DNA from: an uncultured beta proteobacterium | GTDB lineage: Bacteria > Pseudomonadota > Gammaproteobacteria > Burkholderiales > Rhodocyclaceae | DNA length: 56,597 nt | Assembly (NCBI GenBank): GCA_903908065.1 | Contig: CAIVQO010000005.1 | Location: 1 to 56,597, forward strand | Direction of reading: 5' to 3' | Part shown: in pieces, positions 1,535 to 55,733 of the stretch | Position numbering within the stretch: position 1 is the stretch's first letter | How the letters are laid out: each line of letters begins with the position of its first letter | Translations under genes and position numbers: made by a program | The notes under the pieces: generated by a model | What the model was told of the DNA's origin: nothing | What the model saw: the letters and a program-made list of their open reading frames with translations, nothing else | The model's database searches: none

Positions 1535-2808
1535 TGCTTGTCCCCATGCAGGGTGGCCAGCGTGGCGTTCCAGGCGACGCCGAGGCGGCCGCCGATCCAG
1601 CGCGTGAGCATCAGGCCGATGCCGGTGACGGCCAGCGCGGTGAGCCAGGGGCCGGGGGCATTGAGGTGCAATTGCATGCCCAGCACCTTGGTCGCCGTGT
1701 CGCCGGCGCCGACTCCTGCGTCGCCGCTGAGCAGGGCGTAGCCGAGTTCGATCAGCCCCACCAGCCCGGCCAGCAGCACCAGCACCGGCAGCGCTACCGC
1801 GAGGTAGTGCGGCAGCATGCGGCGGAACAATCCGGCCTGCCACAGCGCGCGCTGCACCGCGATCAGGCTGGCGATGCCGCCCGGCGCTACCAGCACCATG
1901 AAGAGGAAGAAGAGGCCGAAGTAGAGCAGCCAGGCGTGGGTCATGCCGCCGATCACGATCTGCATCACGGTGACCAGGATCGCGCCGATGATCGGCCCGT
2001 AGAAAAAGCCGATGCCGCCGACGAAGGCGATCAGCAGCACGACGCCCGAGGTGTGGGCGTTCAGCGTTTCGGCGGTGACGATCTCGTAGTTCAGCGCCGA
2101 GAGCCCGCCGGCGATGCCGGCGAAGAAGCCGGAGAGGATCACCATCAGGAAGCGCACGCGCTCGGTGTCGTAGCCGACGAACTCGGCGCGCTCGGGGTTG
2201 TCGCGCACGGCGTTGGCGATGCGTCCCAGCGGCGTTTGCGTCAGGGCGAACATGGCGACGGTGCAGGCGAAGGCCCACAGCACGATGAGGCCGTACATCT
2301 CGACCTGCGGGCCCCAGCTGAAGCCGAGGACGGTTTCCTTGCCGACCACCCGGTTGCCCGAGACGCCGCCTTCGCCGCCGAACACGGCGGGAAACATCAG
2401 CGAACAGGCGGCGACCATTTCGCCGATGCCGAGCGTGATCATGGCGAAGGTGGTGCCCGCCTTGCGCGTCGTCACGTAGCCGAGCAGCACGCCCGCGGCC
2501 AGGCCGGCCAGTCCGCCGGCGAACGGCAGCAGCGCGGTGGTCAGCGGCCCGCCGCCTTTGCCGATGGCATTCAGCAGGTGCATGGTGGCGAAGGCGCCGA
2601 GGCCGTAGTACACCGCATGGCCGAAGGAGAGCAGGCCGGTCTGGCCGAGCAGCATGTTGTAGGAGAGCGAGAACACCACCATGATGCCGATCTGGCACAG
2701 CAGCGAGATGACGAAGCCGCTCTTGAGCACCAGCGGCAGGGCGAAGGCCAGCGCCAGGCAGCCGCCCCAGACCGCCAGGCGGCCGCGAGAGAGGAGCGCC
2801 GGATTCAT
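1531..2808 (-). CDS. livM: Branched-chain amino acid type ABC transporter permease LivM
   Basis: Inner-membrane permease, 425 residues, with many hydrophobic helices and the LivM-type segments SLSYNMLLGQTGLLSFGHA near residue 50 and GRIANAVRDNPERAEF near residue 185. After the permease core (about residue 310) there is an extra segment of about 110 residues with two further hydrophobic stretches. A copy of the dispersed 25-bp repeat is read there in frame as GVGAGDTAT (about residues 365-373). It overlaps livH upstream and livG downstream by four bases each. The permease assignment is firm; the role of the C-terminal extension is unknown. Confidence 0.92.
   Translation of the reverse strand: MNPALLSRGRLAVWGGCLALAFALPLVLKSGFVISLLCQIGIMVVFSLSYNMLLGQTGLLSFGHAVYYGLGAFATMHLLNAIGKGGGPLTTALLPFAGGLAGLAAGVLLGYVTTRKAGTTFAMITLGIGEMVAACSLMFPAVFGGEGGVSGNRVVGKETVLGFSWGPQVEMYGLIVLWAFACTVAMFALTQTPLGRIANAVRDNPERAEFVGYDTERVRFLMVILSGFFAGIAGGLSALNYEIVTAETLNAHTSGVVLLIAFVGGIGFFYGPIIGAILVTVMQIVIGGMTHAWLLYFGLFFLFMVLVAPGGIASLIAVQRALWQAGLFRRMLPHYLAVALPVLVLLAGLVGLIELGYALLSGDAGVGAGDTATKVLGMQLHLNAPGPWLTALAVTGIGLMLTRWIGGRLGVAWNATLATLHGDKQ
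1691..1715 (-). repeat. Dispersed 25-bp repeat, copy 1 (inside livM)
   Basis: On the minus strand it reads GAGTCGGCGCCGGC then GACACGGCGAC, differing from the commonest form at only a few positions. It lies in the sense direction of livM and is translated as VGAGDTAT. The ends GTCGgCG and CGgCGAC form an imperfect inverted repeat. Confidence 0.8.
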
Positions 2809-52872: not shown

Positions 52873-55733
52873 GCCAGGTCTTCCATTGGCACGCAGGCGC
52901 AGAACAGGTTGCGGTCGCCATACACGTCGTCGATGCGATTCACGTAGGGCCAGAACTTGTTCTCGGCCACCCAGGGCAGCGGGAAGACGGCCTGCTCGCG
53001 GGAGTAAGGCCGGGCCCAGTCGCCCATCAGGTCGGCCTCGGTGTGCGGCGCGTGCTTGAGCGGCGACTGTTCCAGCGTCCAGCTGCCGTTCTCGATCTGG
53101 CGGATTTCCTCGCGGATGGCGATCATGGCCTGGCAGAAGCGGTCGAGCTCGGCCTTGTCCTCGGACTCAGTGGGCTCCACCATCAGCGTGCCGGCCACCG
53201 GGAAGCTCACCGTCGGCGCGTGGAAGCCGTAGTCCATCAGCCGCTTGGCGATGTCGATCTCGGCTACGCCGGTGGCGGCCTTGATGGCGCGCACGTCGAG
53301 GATGCACTCGTGGGCGACGCGGCCCTGGCTGCCGGTGTAGAGCACCGGGTAGTGGTCCTTGAGGCGCGCTGCGACGTAGTTGGCGTTGAGGATGGCAACC
53401 TCGGTGGCGCGGGTGAGGCCGGCGCCGCCCATCATGGTGATGTACATCCAGGAGATGGGCAGGATCGAGGCCGAGCCCCAGGGCGCCGCCGAGACCGCAT
53501 GCTGGCCGCCGTGCGGACCGAGAATCGCCTGCACCGCATGGTTGGCCATGTAGGGCGCGAGGTGGGCCCGGAGGCCGATCGGCCCCATGCCCGGACCGCC
53601 GCCGCCGTGCGGGATGGCGAAGGTCTTGTGCAGGTTGATGTGCGAGACGTCGGCGCCGATGTCGGCCGGGCGGCAGAGGCCGACCTGGGCGTTGAGGTTG
53701 GCGCCGTCCATGTACACCTGGCCGCCATGCGCATGGACGATGGCACAGATGTCCTTTACCGCCTCCTCGAACACGCCGTGGGTGGAGGGGTAGGTCAGCA
53801 TCAGGCAGGACAGCTTGGCTGCGTGCTGTTCCGCCTTGGCCTTGAGGTCGGCGACGTCGACGTTGCCGCTGTCGTCACAGGCCACGGCAATCACTTCCAG
53901 GCCGCACATCTGCGCCGTGGCCGGGTTGGTGCCGTGGGCGGATTTCGGGATCAGGCAGATGTTGCGCGCGCCCTGGCCGTTGGCCTGCTGATAGCGGCGA
54001 ATGGCGACCAGGCCGGCGTATTCGCCCTGGGCGCCGGAATTTGGCTGCATGCAGATGGCGTCGAAGCCGGTGACCGCCCTGAGCTGGGCCTCCAGCCCAG
54101 TGATCAGTTCGACGTAGCCCTGCGCCTGGTCCAGCGGCGCGAAGGGATGCATGCCGGCGAATTCCGGCCAGGACACCGGGATCATCTCGGCGGCGGCGTT
54201 GAGCTTCATGGTGCAGGAGCCGAGCGGGATCATCGCGTGGTCGAGCGCCAGGTCGCGATTCTGCAGGCGTTTCAGGTAGCGCAGCATGCCGTGCTCGGTG
54301 TGGTGCGTGTTGAACACCGGGTGGGCGAGGATTGGTTCGCGCCGTTGCAGCGTGACGGGAATCGCGCAGGGGCGGGCGGCATCGAGCGCCTCGACCGGGG
54401 CGCCCGTGTGGCCGAAGATCTTCAGCAGCGCGGCGATGTCCTCGCGTGTGGTCGTTTCGTCCACGCTGATGCCGACGGTCTCGTCGTCAACGCGGCGCAG
54501 GTTGTAGCCGGCGGCGACCGCCGCCTGCATGATCTTCGCCGTATTGCCAGCGCCGACTTTCACTTCGAAGCTGTCGAAGAAGTCGCGCCCGGTGACGCCT
54601 AATGCGCCGGCCAACAGCGCGGTCAGGCGATGGATGCGCGAGGCGATGCTGCGCAGGCCTTTCGGCCCGTGCCACACCGCGTACATGCCAGCGATGTTGG
54701 CCAGCAGCACCTGCGAGGTGCAGATGTTGGAGTTGGCCTTCTCGCGCCGGATGTGTTGCTCGCGCGTCTGCAACGCCATGCGGTAGGCGGTCTTGCCGCG
54801 GGCATCTTTCGAGACGCCGATGATGCGTCCCGGCATCGAGCGCACGTGGGCTTCGCGCGTGGCAAAGAAGGCGGCGTGCGGGCCGCCGAAACCCATCGGC
54901 ACGCCGAAGCGCTGCGCCGAGCCGAGTGCGATGTCGGCGCCCATCTCGCCAGGCGACTTGAGCAGCACCAGCGCCATCAGGTCGGAGGCCACGGCTACCA
55001 CCCCGCCCTTGTTCTTCACTTCGGCAATCGCCGTGGTCAGGTCGGCGATTTCGCCGCGGGCATTGGGGTACTGGAACAGCGCGCCGAACAGGTCGTGCTG
55101 GTGGGCATCTTCGGGTTTGCCGAACACCAGCTCGAAGCCGAAATACGCGGCACGGGTTTTCAGCACGTCGATGGTCTGCAGGAAGGCGGCCTCATCGACA
55201 AAGAAAACATTGCCCTTGGCCTTCGATGCGCGGCGTGCCATGGTCATGGCCTCGGCGGCGGCGGTGGCCTCGTCGAGCAGCGAGGCGTTGGCGATCTCCA
55301 GCCCGGTGAGGTCAATCACCATCTGCTGGTAGTTGAGCAGCGCCTCCAGGCGGCCCTGGGCGATCTCGGCCTGGTAGGGCGTGTAGGCGGTGTACCAGCC
55401 GGGGTTCTCGAACAGGTTGCGCAGGATCACGGGCGGCGTCAGCGTGCCGTAGTAGCCCTGGCCGATCAGCGATTTCTTGACCACGTTCTTCGCCGCGACG
55501 GCCTTCAGGGCGGTCAGGGCGGCGTGTTCCGGCATGGCAGCGGGCAGGTCGAGCGGGCGTTGCAGGCGGATCGTGGCGGGCACGGTTTCGCTGATCAGCG
55601 TGCGCAGCGAATCGGTGCCGATCGAGGCCAGCATGGCCGCGATGGCGTGTTCATCGGGGCCGATGTGGCGGGCGATGAATTCGTCGCGCTGTTCGAGTTC
55701 GGTAAGCGGGTGCGAGAGGTGTTCGGCGTGCAT
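52869..55733 (-). CDS. gcvP: Glycine dehydrogenase (decarboxylating), P protein
   Basis: 954 residues, the full-length single-chain form. N-terminal [25 protein letters not shown] and [20 protein letters not shown]-terminal PLP-binding lysine in [16 protein letters not shown], and [11 protein letters not shown]. It decarboxylates glycine and passes the aminomethyl group to GcvH. A dispersed-repeat copy is read in frame as KVGAGNTAK (392-400), between DFFDSFEV and the IMQAAV helix. That segment varies among GcvP proteins. Downstream of gcvH in a gcvT-H-P-R order. Confidence 0.97.
54535..54560 (-). repeat. Dispersed 25-bp repeat, copy 13 (inside gcvP)
   Basis: On the minus strand AAAGTCGGCGCTGGC then AATACGGCGAA. 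It is identical to copy 4 over 25 bases and read in the same frame, although the two genes are unrelated. Confidence 0.85.

Follow-up and report, generated by a model that had tools for sequence, protein, structure and literature searches.

A long bipartite DNA motif dispersed through betaproteobacterial genomes and phages: a possible self-DNA signal

What could keep hundreds of near-identical copies of one short sequence in a bacterial chromosome, inside unrelated genes as well as between them? The question is raised by contig CAIVQO010000005.1 (forward strand, positions 1 to 56,597) of assembly GCA_903908065.1, from an uncultured betaproteobacterium of the Rhodocyclaceae. This whole stretch of 56,597 nucleotides is called the window below. 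An earlier note on it had listed 13 copies of a dispersed 25-bp repeat and had likened them to repetitive extragenic palindromic (REP) elements, possibly mobile, or to a protein binding site. Following this motif through the genome, the genus and the family, we conclude that it is very probably recognised, and under selection, at the level of DNA, whatever its reader may be. As for its role, we tentatively favour a signal for DNA uptake or self-recognition, similar to the DNA uptake sequence (DUS) and the uptake signal sequence (USS) but longer and sparser. We searched the literature both for the motif's literal core and for any repeat or uptake sequence reported from this group; no description of the motif turned up within the coverage of these searches, outside which most subscription papers fell.

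Results

Anatomy and abundance of the motif

The consensus is RARA-GTCGGCGCYGGCG-NN-ACGGCG(A), a bipartite pattern in a frame of 26 bases, about 20 of which are fixed. The left half varies less than the right one. The AA or GA that had been noticed ahead of the core is present, but it is part of the motif itself (RARA in this genus, AAAA in other genera) and not mere flank. The imperfect inverted repeat seen in the ends also stands (TCGgCG...CGgCGA).

In the window, we counted 11 matches to the 22-mer GTCGGCGCTGGCRAYACGGCGA at up to three mismatches, while dinucleotide shuffles of the window gave 0.00. All 13 listed positions carry a copy, with an offset of at most 3 nt: 11 differ from GTCGGCGCTGGCRAYACGGCGA by 0–3 mismatches and two (37136 and 38767) by 4. 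A 14th, weak copy with 4 mismatches, at 26844, was absent from that list. The fourth and thirteenth copies (15855 and 54536), noted earlier as matching over 25 bases, are identical over 26 bases and agree at 28 of 29 when flanks are included.

The genome to which the window belongs (G000; 3.84 Mb, 103 contigs, 99.6% complete) contains 510 matches at up to three mismatches, 246 forward and 264 reverse; the reversed-pattern control gave 1. The repeat is indeed genome-wide, but the expected "order of a thousand" was about twofold too high. For a more detailed study, we sampled 1.2 of the 3.8 Mb of a single-contig relative, G002, as 60 stretches of 20 kb at even spacing. They hold 215 copies at the same threshold (none in the Markov control), and 213 of these had enough flank for context work. 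The motif thus occurs about once per 7.5 kb in its own genome and once per 5.8 kb in G002. The G.G mismatch within the inverted repeat is retained in 223 of 242 G002 copies.

The earlier note had called for counts in codon-preserving shuffles. We ran three synonymous-codon shuffles in G002 that preserved every protein and the codon usage of each gene. With variable positions masked, the real sequence has 140 exact, 59 one-off, 42 two-off and 17 three-off matches, and the shuffles have 0–1, 3–7, 11–14 and 31–41, respectively. Real counts are far above the shuffled ones; the shuffles exceed them at three mismatches probably because shuffled true sites end up there. The motif carries 36.7 bits of information, whereas 13.5 bits would suffice to locate 654 sites, a figure partly inflated because the site set was picked by similarity.

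The same profile within and between genes

Genes of G002 were called with a home-made gene caller, which assigned 87.3% of bases to coding and 12.7% to intergenic DNA. Among the 213 copies, 132 lie within called genes, 79 are intergenic and 2 run across a gene edge. By frame, the genic copies number 57, 35, 21, 16, 2 and 1, so that 129 of 132 fall in four of the six frames. The commonest frame reads V-G-A-G-x-T-A. The letter profile is alike in intergenic DNA and in all four used frames. Positions 14 and 15 are free in both settings, with entropies of 1.50 and 1.46 bits in intergenic DNA and 1.52 and 1.63 bits in genes.

Conserved protein motifs, which the earlier note had named as a possible refutation, therefore fail to account for the copies in G002: they occur in several frames, on both strands and in intergenic DNA. 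The shared profile in and between genes, together with the free two-base gap, indicates that selection acts on the DNA rather than on a peptide or an RNA, and makes a copied unit hardly likely.

Conservation at orthologous sites

In the ortholog comparisons, loci L002, L003, L031–L043 and L080 did not serve as queries; we required alignments of at least 300 bases and more than 60 columns between a copy and the alignment end. G002 copies were set against a relative in 45 comparisons: 36 shared the motif (at up to 4 mismatches), 3 were aligned without gaps but beyond this threshold, and 6 were otherwise gapped, at least 2 of which also carry the motif. An insertion-sized gap (at least 12 bases in the partner opposite the motif) was seen in 0 of 88 ortholog comparisons, counted in both directions. 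Comparison with relatives thus speaks against a mobile or inserted unit.

In 71 of 77 ungapped comparisons, conservation was higher in the motif than in its 40-base flanks. At unchanged residues, identical codons were used in 146 of 157 cases (93%) inside the motif and 274 of 441 (62%) outside it (27 pairs, 23 sites); many of the partner loci had been fetched for holding an exact motif. When all exact partners were excluded, the values were 58/64 inside and 118/186 outside (12 pairs). The sole pair with a partner not fetched by the motif pattern gave 6/7 and 14/22, which is too small to judge.

One site was followed across the genus. The copy at 54536..54557 (- strand, exact) lies within the gene at 52869-55733 (-), which we take to be gcvP, a name based on its protein rather than on a family search, and reads VGAGNTA there. 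Partners were fetched by protein; 25 genus genomes were searched and 21 gave the site, the comparison leaving out 4 of 30 loci (L331–L334) whose matches did not cover it. In these 21 genomes, 16 retain the motif at up to 4 mismatches, 3 carry hairpin inserts in it and 2 (G021 and G017) lack it in a gene of equal length. In gcvP rows from other families of the order, the motif was missing in 5 of 5.

Layout along the chromosome

Plotting strand and density against the origin and terminus, as had been proposed, revealed neither an orientation bias nor a clear trend. With the G002 origin and terminus positioned by GC skew only, 99 and 114 copies lie on the two strands relative to replication, and no replichore polarity was seen. 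Binned by distance from the origin, the density was 4.1, 3.3, 3.7 and 3.0 copies per 20 kb, with no clear trend and no regional restriction. An apparent polarity, seen in a list that had only plus-strand hits over part of the G002 chromosome, was dropped, as both strands carry copies throughout the sixty stretches.

Counts per 20 kb in G002 are slightly even (variance/mean 0.73, P 0.06), also in the 53 stretches with a GC content of at least 0.61 (variance/mean 0.62, P 0.013). A spacing peak at 58 bases was set aside, as it came mostly from orthologous gcvP copies fetched repeatedly. The 60 G002 stretches (L215–L274) also contain a second dispersed family around AATCTGCGAAATCTGCGGA, whose 12-mers occur 21–26 times, in 13–14 of them.

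Distribution and variants in the family

All 30 other genus genomes that we searched contain the motif, in 36–707 copies. Our first survey outside the genus took in 24 genomes from the order's other families and 6 from the family's other genera, and found 0–3 copies. A restriction to the genus was, however, overturned by a sample of 199 family genomes. With variable positions masked, 18 of them hold at least 20 exact copies and the remaining 181 hold 0–8. Of the 18 motif-rich genomes, 6 belong to the window's own genus; the other 12 are spread over five genera (g32, g62, g70, g88 and g43). At a tolerance of one mismatch, ten of the rich genomes from outside the genus have 179–572 copies. Genus g43 is patchy, with two rich species (138 and 219 copies) and three poor ones (1, 3 and 5).

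The motif differs between these groups. Among 30 copies from other genera (10 genomes, 5 genera), the A-run reads AAAA in 24, and position 15 is likewise G in 24; for 109 G002 copies, the corresponding counts are 10 and 31. These differences are dialect-like variants. The identity of the core across genera is no evidence, because the searches behind both sets required it.

In some motif-poor genomes (G183:C148, G108:C50, G109:C104, G076:C1 and G135:C1), the few copies are clustered within 4–41 kb. Their positions suggest islands imported from motif-rich donors.

Within the genus, G017 has only 36 copies. Loss of competence genes as the cause is unsupported, since ComEC and DprA are both present, and when a replacement motif was sought in 345 kb, none of the top-listed words was a similar dispersed one. 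The loci read from this genome (L341, L342 and L361–L380) show over-represented, tandem-looking CGCAGAGG/CAGAGGCG strings. Hairpin repeats CCTGCCCCCGAAGGGGAATCCCAGG without the motif ends were also seen in G017.

Phages and plasmids

An exact copy was found in 18 stretches on 17 IMG/VR contigs. Eight proteins were sampled from seven such stretches or from neighbouring ones, and every one matches a phage-type family (tail fibre, terminase, ParB, primase and methylase). These stretches hold 29 copies in 181 kb; 18 of them had served to select the stretches, and the 11 extra amount to about 1 per 16 kb, so the idea of a host-like density in phages was dropped. Six phage contigs, representing three distinct sequences, were aligned; in them, the motif lies ahead of the tail-fibre gene, within a small frame. 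There, at unchanged residues, all 8 codons in the motif are unchanged, as compared with 39/55, 33/54 and 46/69 identical outside it, in what is a small sample.

Searching named phage records for the motif gave nothing. Among plasmid records, it appeared in 18 scattered entries from unrelated organisms, and annotated genes underlie all 15 of the rows shown.

Long forms with hairpin inserts

In the 315 loci read (2.9 Mb with overlaps), rare copies keep both ends of the motif and carry an insert at its free middle. Inserts of +36 bp were found in 14 rows (a similar hairpin in two orientations), of +24 bp in 2 rows and of +60 bp in 3 rows. Such hairpin inserts within the motif are found at L267:7590-7650 and L262:13111-13170, in L127, L171, L229 and L266, and in other loci. 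In two gcvP genes, those of G023 and G003, the motif is interrupted in frame by 36 nt, and a further 24 nt are present in G015. A pair of orthologous loci (L113 and L229) differs in form, one species having the short and the other the long motif. The long form also occurs in phage contigs. Small hairpin elements may prefer the motif as a target; alternatively, its outer arms may function with differing middles.

Copies in the window

Besides the copy in gcvP, others in the window lie inside genes. The one at 1692..1713 (-, 1 mismatch) is within the branched-chain amino acid permease gene (1531-2808, -) and reads VGAGDTA. A gene for an oligopeptide ATP-binding cassette (ABC) transporter ATPase with two ABC domains holds two: an exact copy at 15855..15876 (+), before the second domain, reading VGAGNTA, and one at 16257..16278 (+, 1 mismatch), reading VGAGDTA. 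In the YdjM-family membrane protein gene, the copy at 11343..11364 (+, 1 mismatch) is in the frame ESALVTRR. Antisense copies lie in the hydroxyacylglutathione hydrolase gene (20749..20770, +, 2 mismatches), where the G002 site is occupied and G017 has a 3-mismatch form with similar flanks, and in a peptidase U32 family gene (50984..51005, +, 3 mismatches).

The weak copy at 26844..26865 (-, 4 mismatches) is in a zinc-binding dehydrogenase gene, whose G002 site is occupied with 3 mismatches. The copy at 7454..7475 (+, 1 mismatch) is in or just before the called gene at 7272-8312 (+), which has an uncertain start and no Pfam hit, and that at 35842..35863 (-, 1 mismatch) overlaps the final bases of the called gene at 34672-35850. 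Four copies on the minus strand are intergenic: 37136..37157 (4 mismatches), and, each 2 bases past a stop codon, 37764..37785 (3 mismatches), 38767..38788 (4 mismatches) and 46030..46051 (2 mismatches).

The window also contains a c-di-GMP-I (cyclic di-GMP) riboswitch at 33968-34056 (+), which scored 77.4 bits (gathering threshold 35) upstream of the called gene at 34152.

Discussion

A tentative reading as an uptake signal

The genic placement, the choice of frames, presence or absence without indels, the dialect-like variants, the patchiness, the lack of polarity and the carriage by phages fit a DUS better than a REP element, a site of the Chi or KOPS (FtsK orienting polar sequence) type or an ordinary operator. 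From this likeness, a role in DNA uptake or self-recognition may be proposed, though with some hesitation. The motif would be a recognition site in double-stranded DNA that arises by base substitution at tolerant places and is then held there by selection or by transfer-driven bias rather than by insertion. A receptor on a type IV pilus or competence apparatus would prefer motif-bearing DNA in natural transformation. Incoming alleles that carry the motif would be favoured, and hundreds of copies might accumulate in genes, in intergenic DNA and in co-evolved prophages. Both the uptake receptor as reader and uptake bias as the force of maintenance are what we infer from the pattern of sites. In Pasteurellaceae, the available part of PMC7371117 describes uptake sequences accumulating in co-evolved prophages; for the phage copies described here, a direct benefit to the phage is an equally possible explanation.

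Several observations weigh against this proposal. The presence of ComEC in 30 of the 31 genus genomes, of DprA in 30 of 31 (above the cut-off in 28) and of the ComP_DUS pilin family also in 30 of 31 is in keeping with uptake, but these genes, with the pilins taken as one family, do not track the motif. G017, with its 36 copies, has both ComEC and DprA, and in the family the ComP_DUS family is present in 6 of 6 motif-poor and 11 of 12 motif-rich genomes. Known uptake tags have 9–12 bases, as opposed to about 20 fixed bases here; the DUS, according to the sources as far as available, measures 10–12 bases and occurs once per 0.4–1.1 kb, whereas our motif occurs once per 5.8–7.5 kb. Close pairs of copies are not enriched in the G002 stretches (12 spacings below 500 bp, with 16.6 expected). 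Depletion in foreign DNA, which such a signal might show, is not established. Between the GC-poorest and the GC-richest fifth of genes, motif density rises about 24-fold (0.011 to 0.264 per kb), but the motif is itself GC-rich, which confounds this trend; with genes grouped into quintiles by codon typicality, the densities are 0.103, 0.169, 0.120, 0.165 and 0.080 per kb, with no trend. Finally, there is an association with transposase genes, to which we return below.

A possible site for a chromosomal protein

The main rival is that the motif binds an abundant chromosomal protein, engaged in nucleoid organisation, condensation, segregation or repair, at some 500–700 sites per genome. We regard this as a serious though rather unlikely alternative. 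The near-dyad TCGgCG-N9-CGgCGA, copies all round the chromosome, the strong constraint on DNA in and between genes, the mild evenness of spacing and even the copies in phage contigs are all what such a site could produce. However, the information content is far above what is needed to find the sites, even if it is partly inflated by the similarity-chosen set, and the more invariant left half makes the motif read as directional. Patchiness within a single genus such as g43 would be odd for an essential system, and neither a regional restriction nor polarity was found.

A possible link to REP-type transposases

A REP-like palindrome would owe its copies, now or formerly, to a REP-associated tyrosine transposase (TnpA_REP, or RAYT), after which they were kept for other reasons. 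The motif is a short imperfect palindrome with hundreds of copies, enriched intergenically, and Y1_Tnp genes (Y1_Tnp being the REP-transposase domain) are present in 26 of 31 genus genomes. Across the 20 transposase loci that we fetched (61.5 kb), 21 copies were counted, roughly double the density in G002. For 10 of 15 RAYT-type genes, a copy lies within 210 bp of one end or the other, as compared with 60 of 360 like-sized G002 genes (binomial P 2e-5, a nominal value that is too small because the 15 genes are related and not independent). This adjacency is better explained by a REP origin than by uptake. In the 15 RAYT-type loci (L066–L080), these 10 copies lie downstream of the stop codon in 6 cases and upstream in 4; among the downstream copies, five are on the strand of the gene (72–158 or 60 bp away) and one is on the opposite strand.

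Nevertheless, the TnpA_REP gene that the earlier note had suggested looking for is missing: no Y1_Tnp was found in the own genome, which is 99.6% complete, and among the 12 motif-rich genomes of other genera, 6 have it and 6 do not. In addition, 62% of G002 copies are genic and in selected frames, no comparison showed an insertion-sized gap, the motif-less gcvP genes are of the same length as the others, and the gap positions vary freely, unlike in a copied unit. The REP reading is thus improbable, and of the earlier alternatives it is the binding site and mostly not the REP-like, mobile element that survives. The adjacency does suggest that the motif has some connection, perhaps by descent, to a REP system, although it is kept in genomes that lack the gene; it may have grown from a tamed REP system.

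Very improbable, in our view, is conversion, in which short single-stranded motif DNA anneals to near-matches at replication forks and rewrites them, with hairpin donors giving the long forms: it would account for presence or absence without indels, for the sharp separation of intact sites from background, and for long forms that retain their ends, both in phage contigs and at the same orthologous site (three gcvP species among the cases), but positions 14–15 are not co-copied, neither a donor element nor an enzyme was found, and variants follow genus lines.

Significance

Uptake signals are known from two families, Neisseriaceae and Pasteurellaceae, according to the part of PMC12616744 at hand. 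If the motif is an uptake signal, it falls outside both and would extend uptake-sequence biology. It might then tentatively be counted as a third, independently evolved genome-wide self-DNA signal, bipartite and shared by at least 6 genera of one betaproteobacterial family and by phages, with a putative protein reader. The on/off pattern among close g43 species would make the origin of the signal and the identity of its receptor testable by comparison. If it is instead a chromosomal binding site, it is unusually long and information-rich, with 500–700 sites per genome, and would be a new kind of mark common to host and phage. Under either reading, the motif marks the DNA of these lineages.

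Comparison with known systems

The DUS of Neisseriaceae resembles the motif in being genome-wide, genic as well as intergenic, located at permissive places and divided into dialects between species and genera, as described in the accessible portion of PMC3630211; it is reduced in genomic islands, as noted in the portion of PMC7371117 available. It differs in often forming inverted pairs at terminators and in its association with the pilin ComP, whereas our motif has no excess of close pairs, has a free gap and belongs to another family. The USS of Pasteurellaceae is likewise over-represented and directional, and is said in that same part of PMC7371117 to accumulate in co-evolved prophages; its core is short (ca. 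9 nt), and it belongs to a gammaproteobacterial family, while the motif is longer.

REP/RAYT systems share with the motif the hundreds of short imperfect palindromes per genome, and copies of the motif are enriched beside RAYT-type genes. Unlike REP elements, the motif shows no sign of insertion, is mostly genic and often conserved at orthologous sites, and persists where the transposase is absent, in the own genome and in other rich ones. KOPS and Chi show an orientation bias with replication, which is absent here (99 and 114 copies). Sites of nucleoid and segregation proteins (matS, parS and Noc-type) have a known binder and a regional distribution; for the motif, no regional restriction was seen. 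The cyanobacterial HIP1 (highly iterated palindrome 1) is similar in being highly iterated, confined to a limited group and of unsettled purpose, as far as the available part of PMC4390886 describes it. HIP1, however, is an 8-base palindrome, while the motif described here is long, directional and bipartite.

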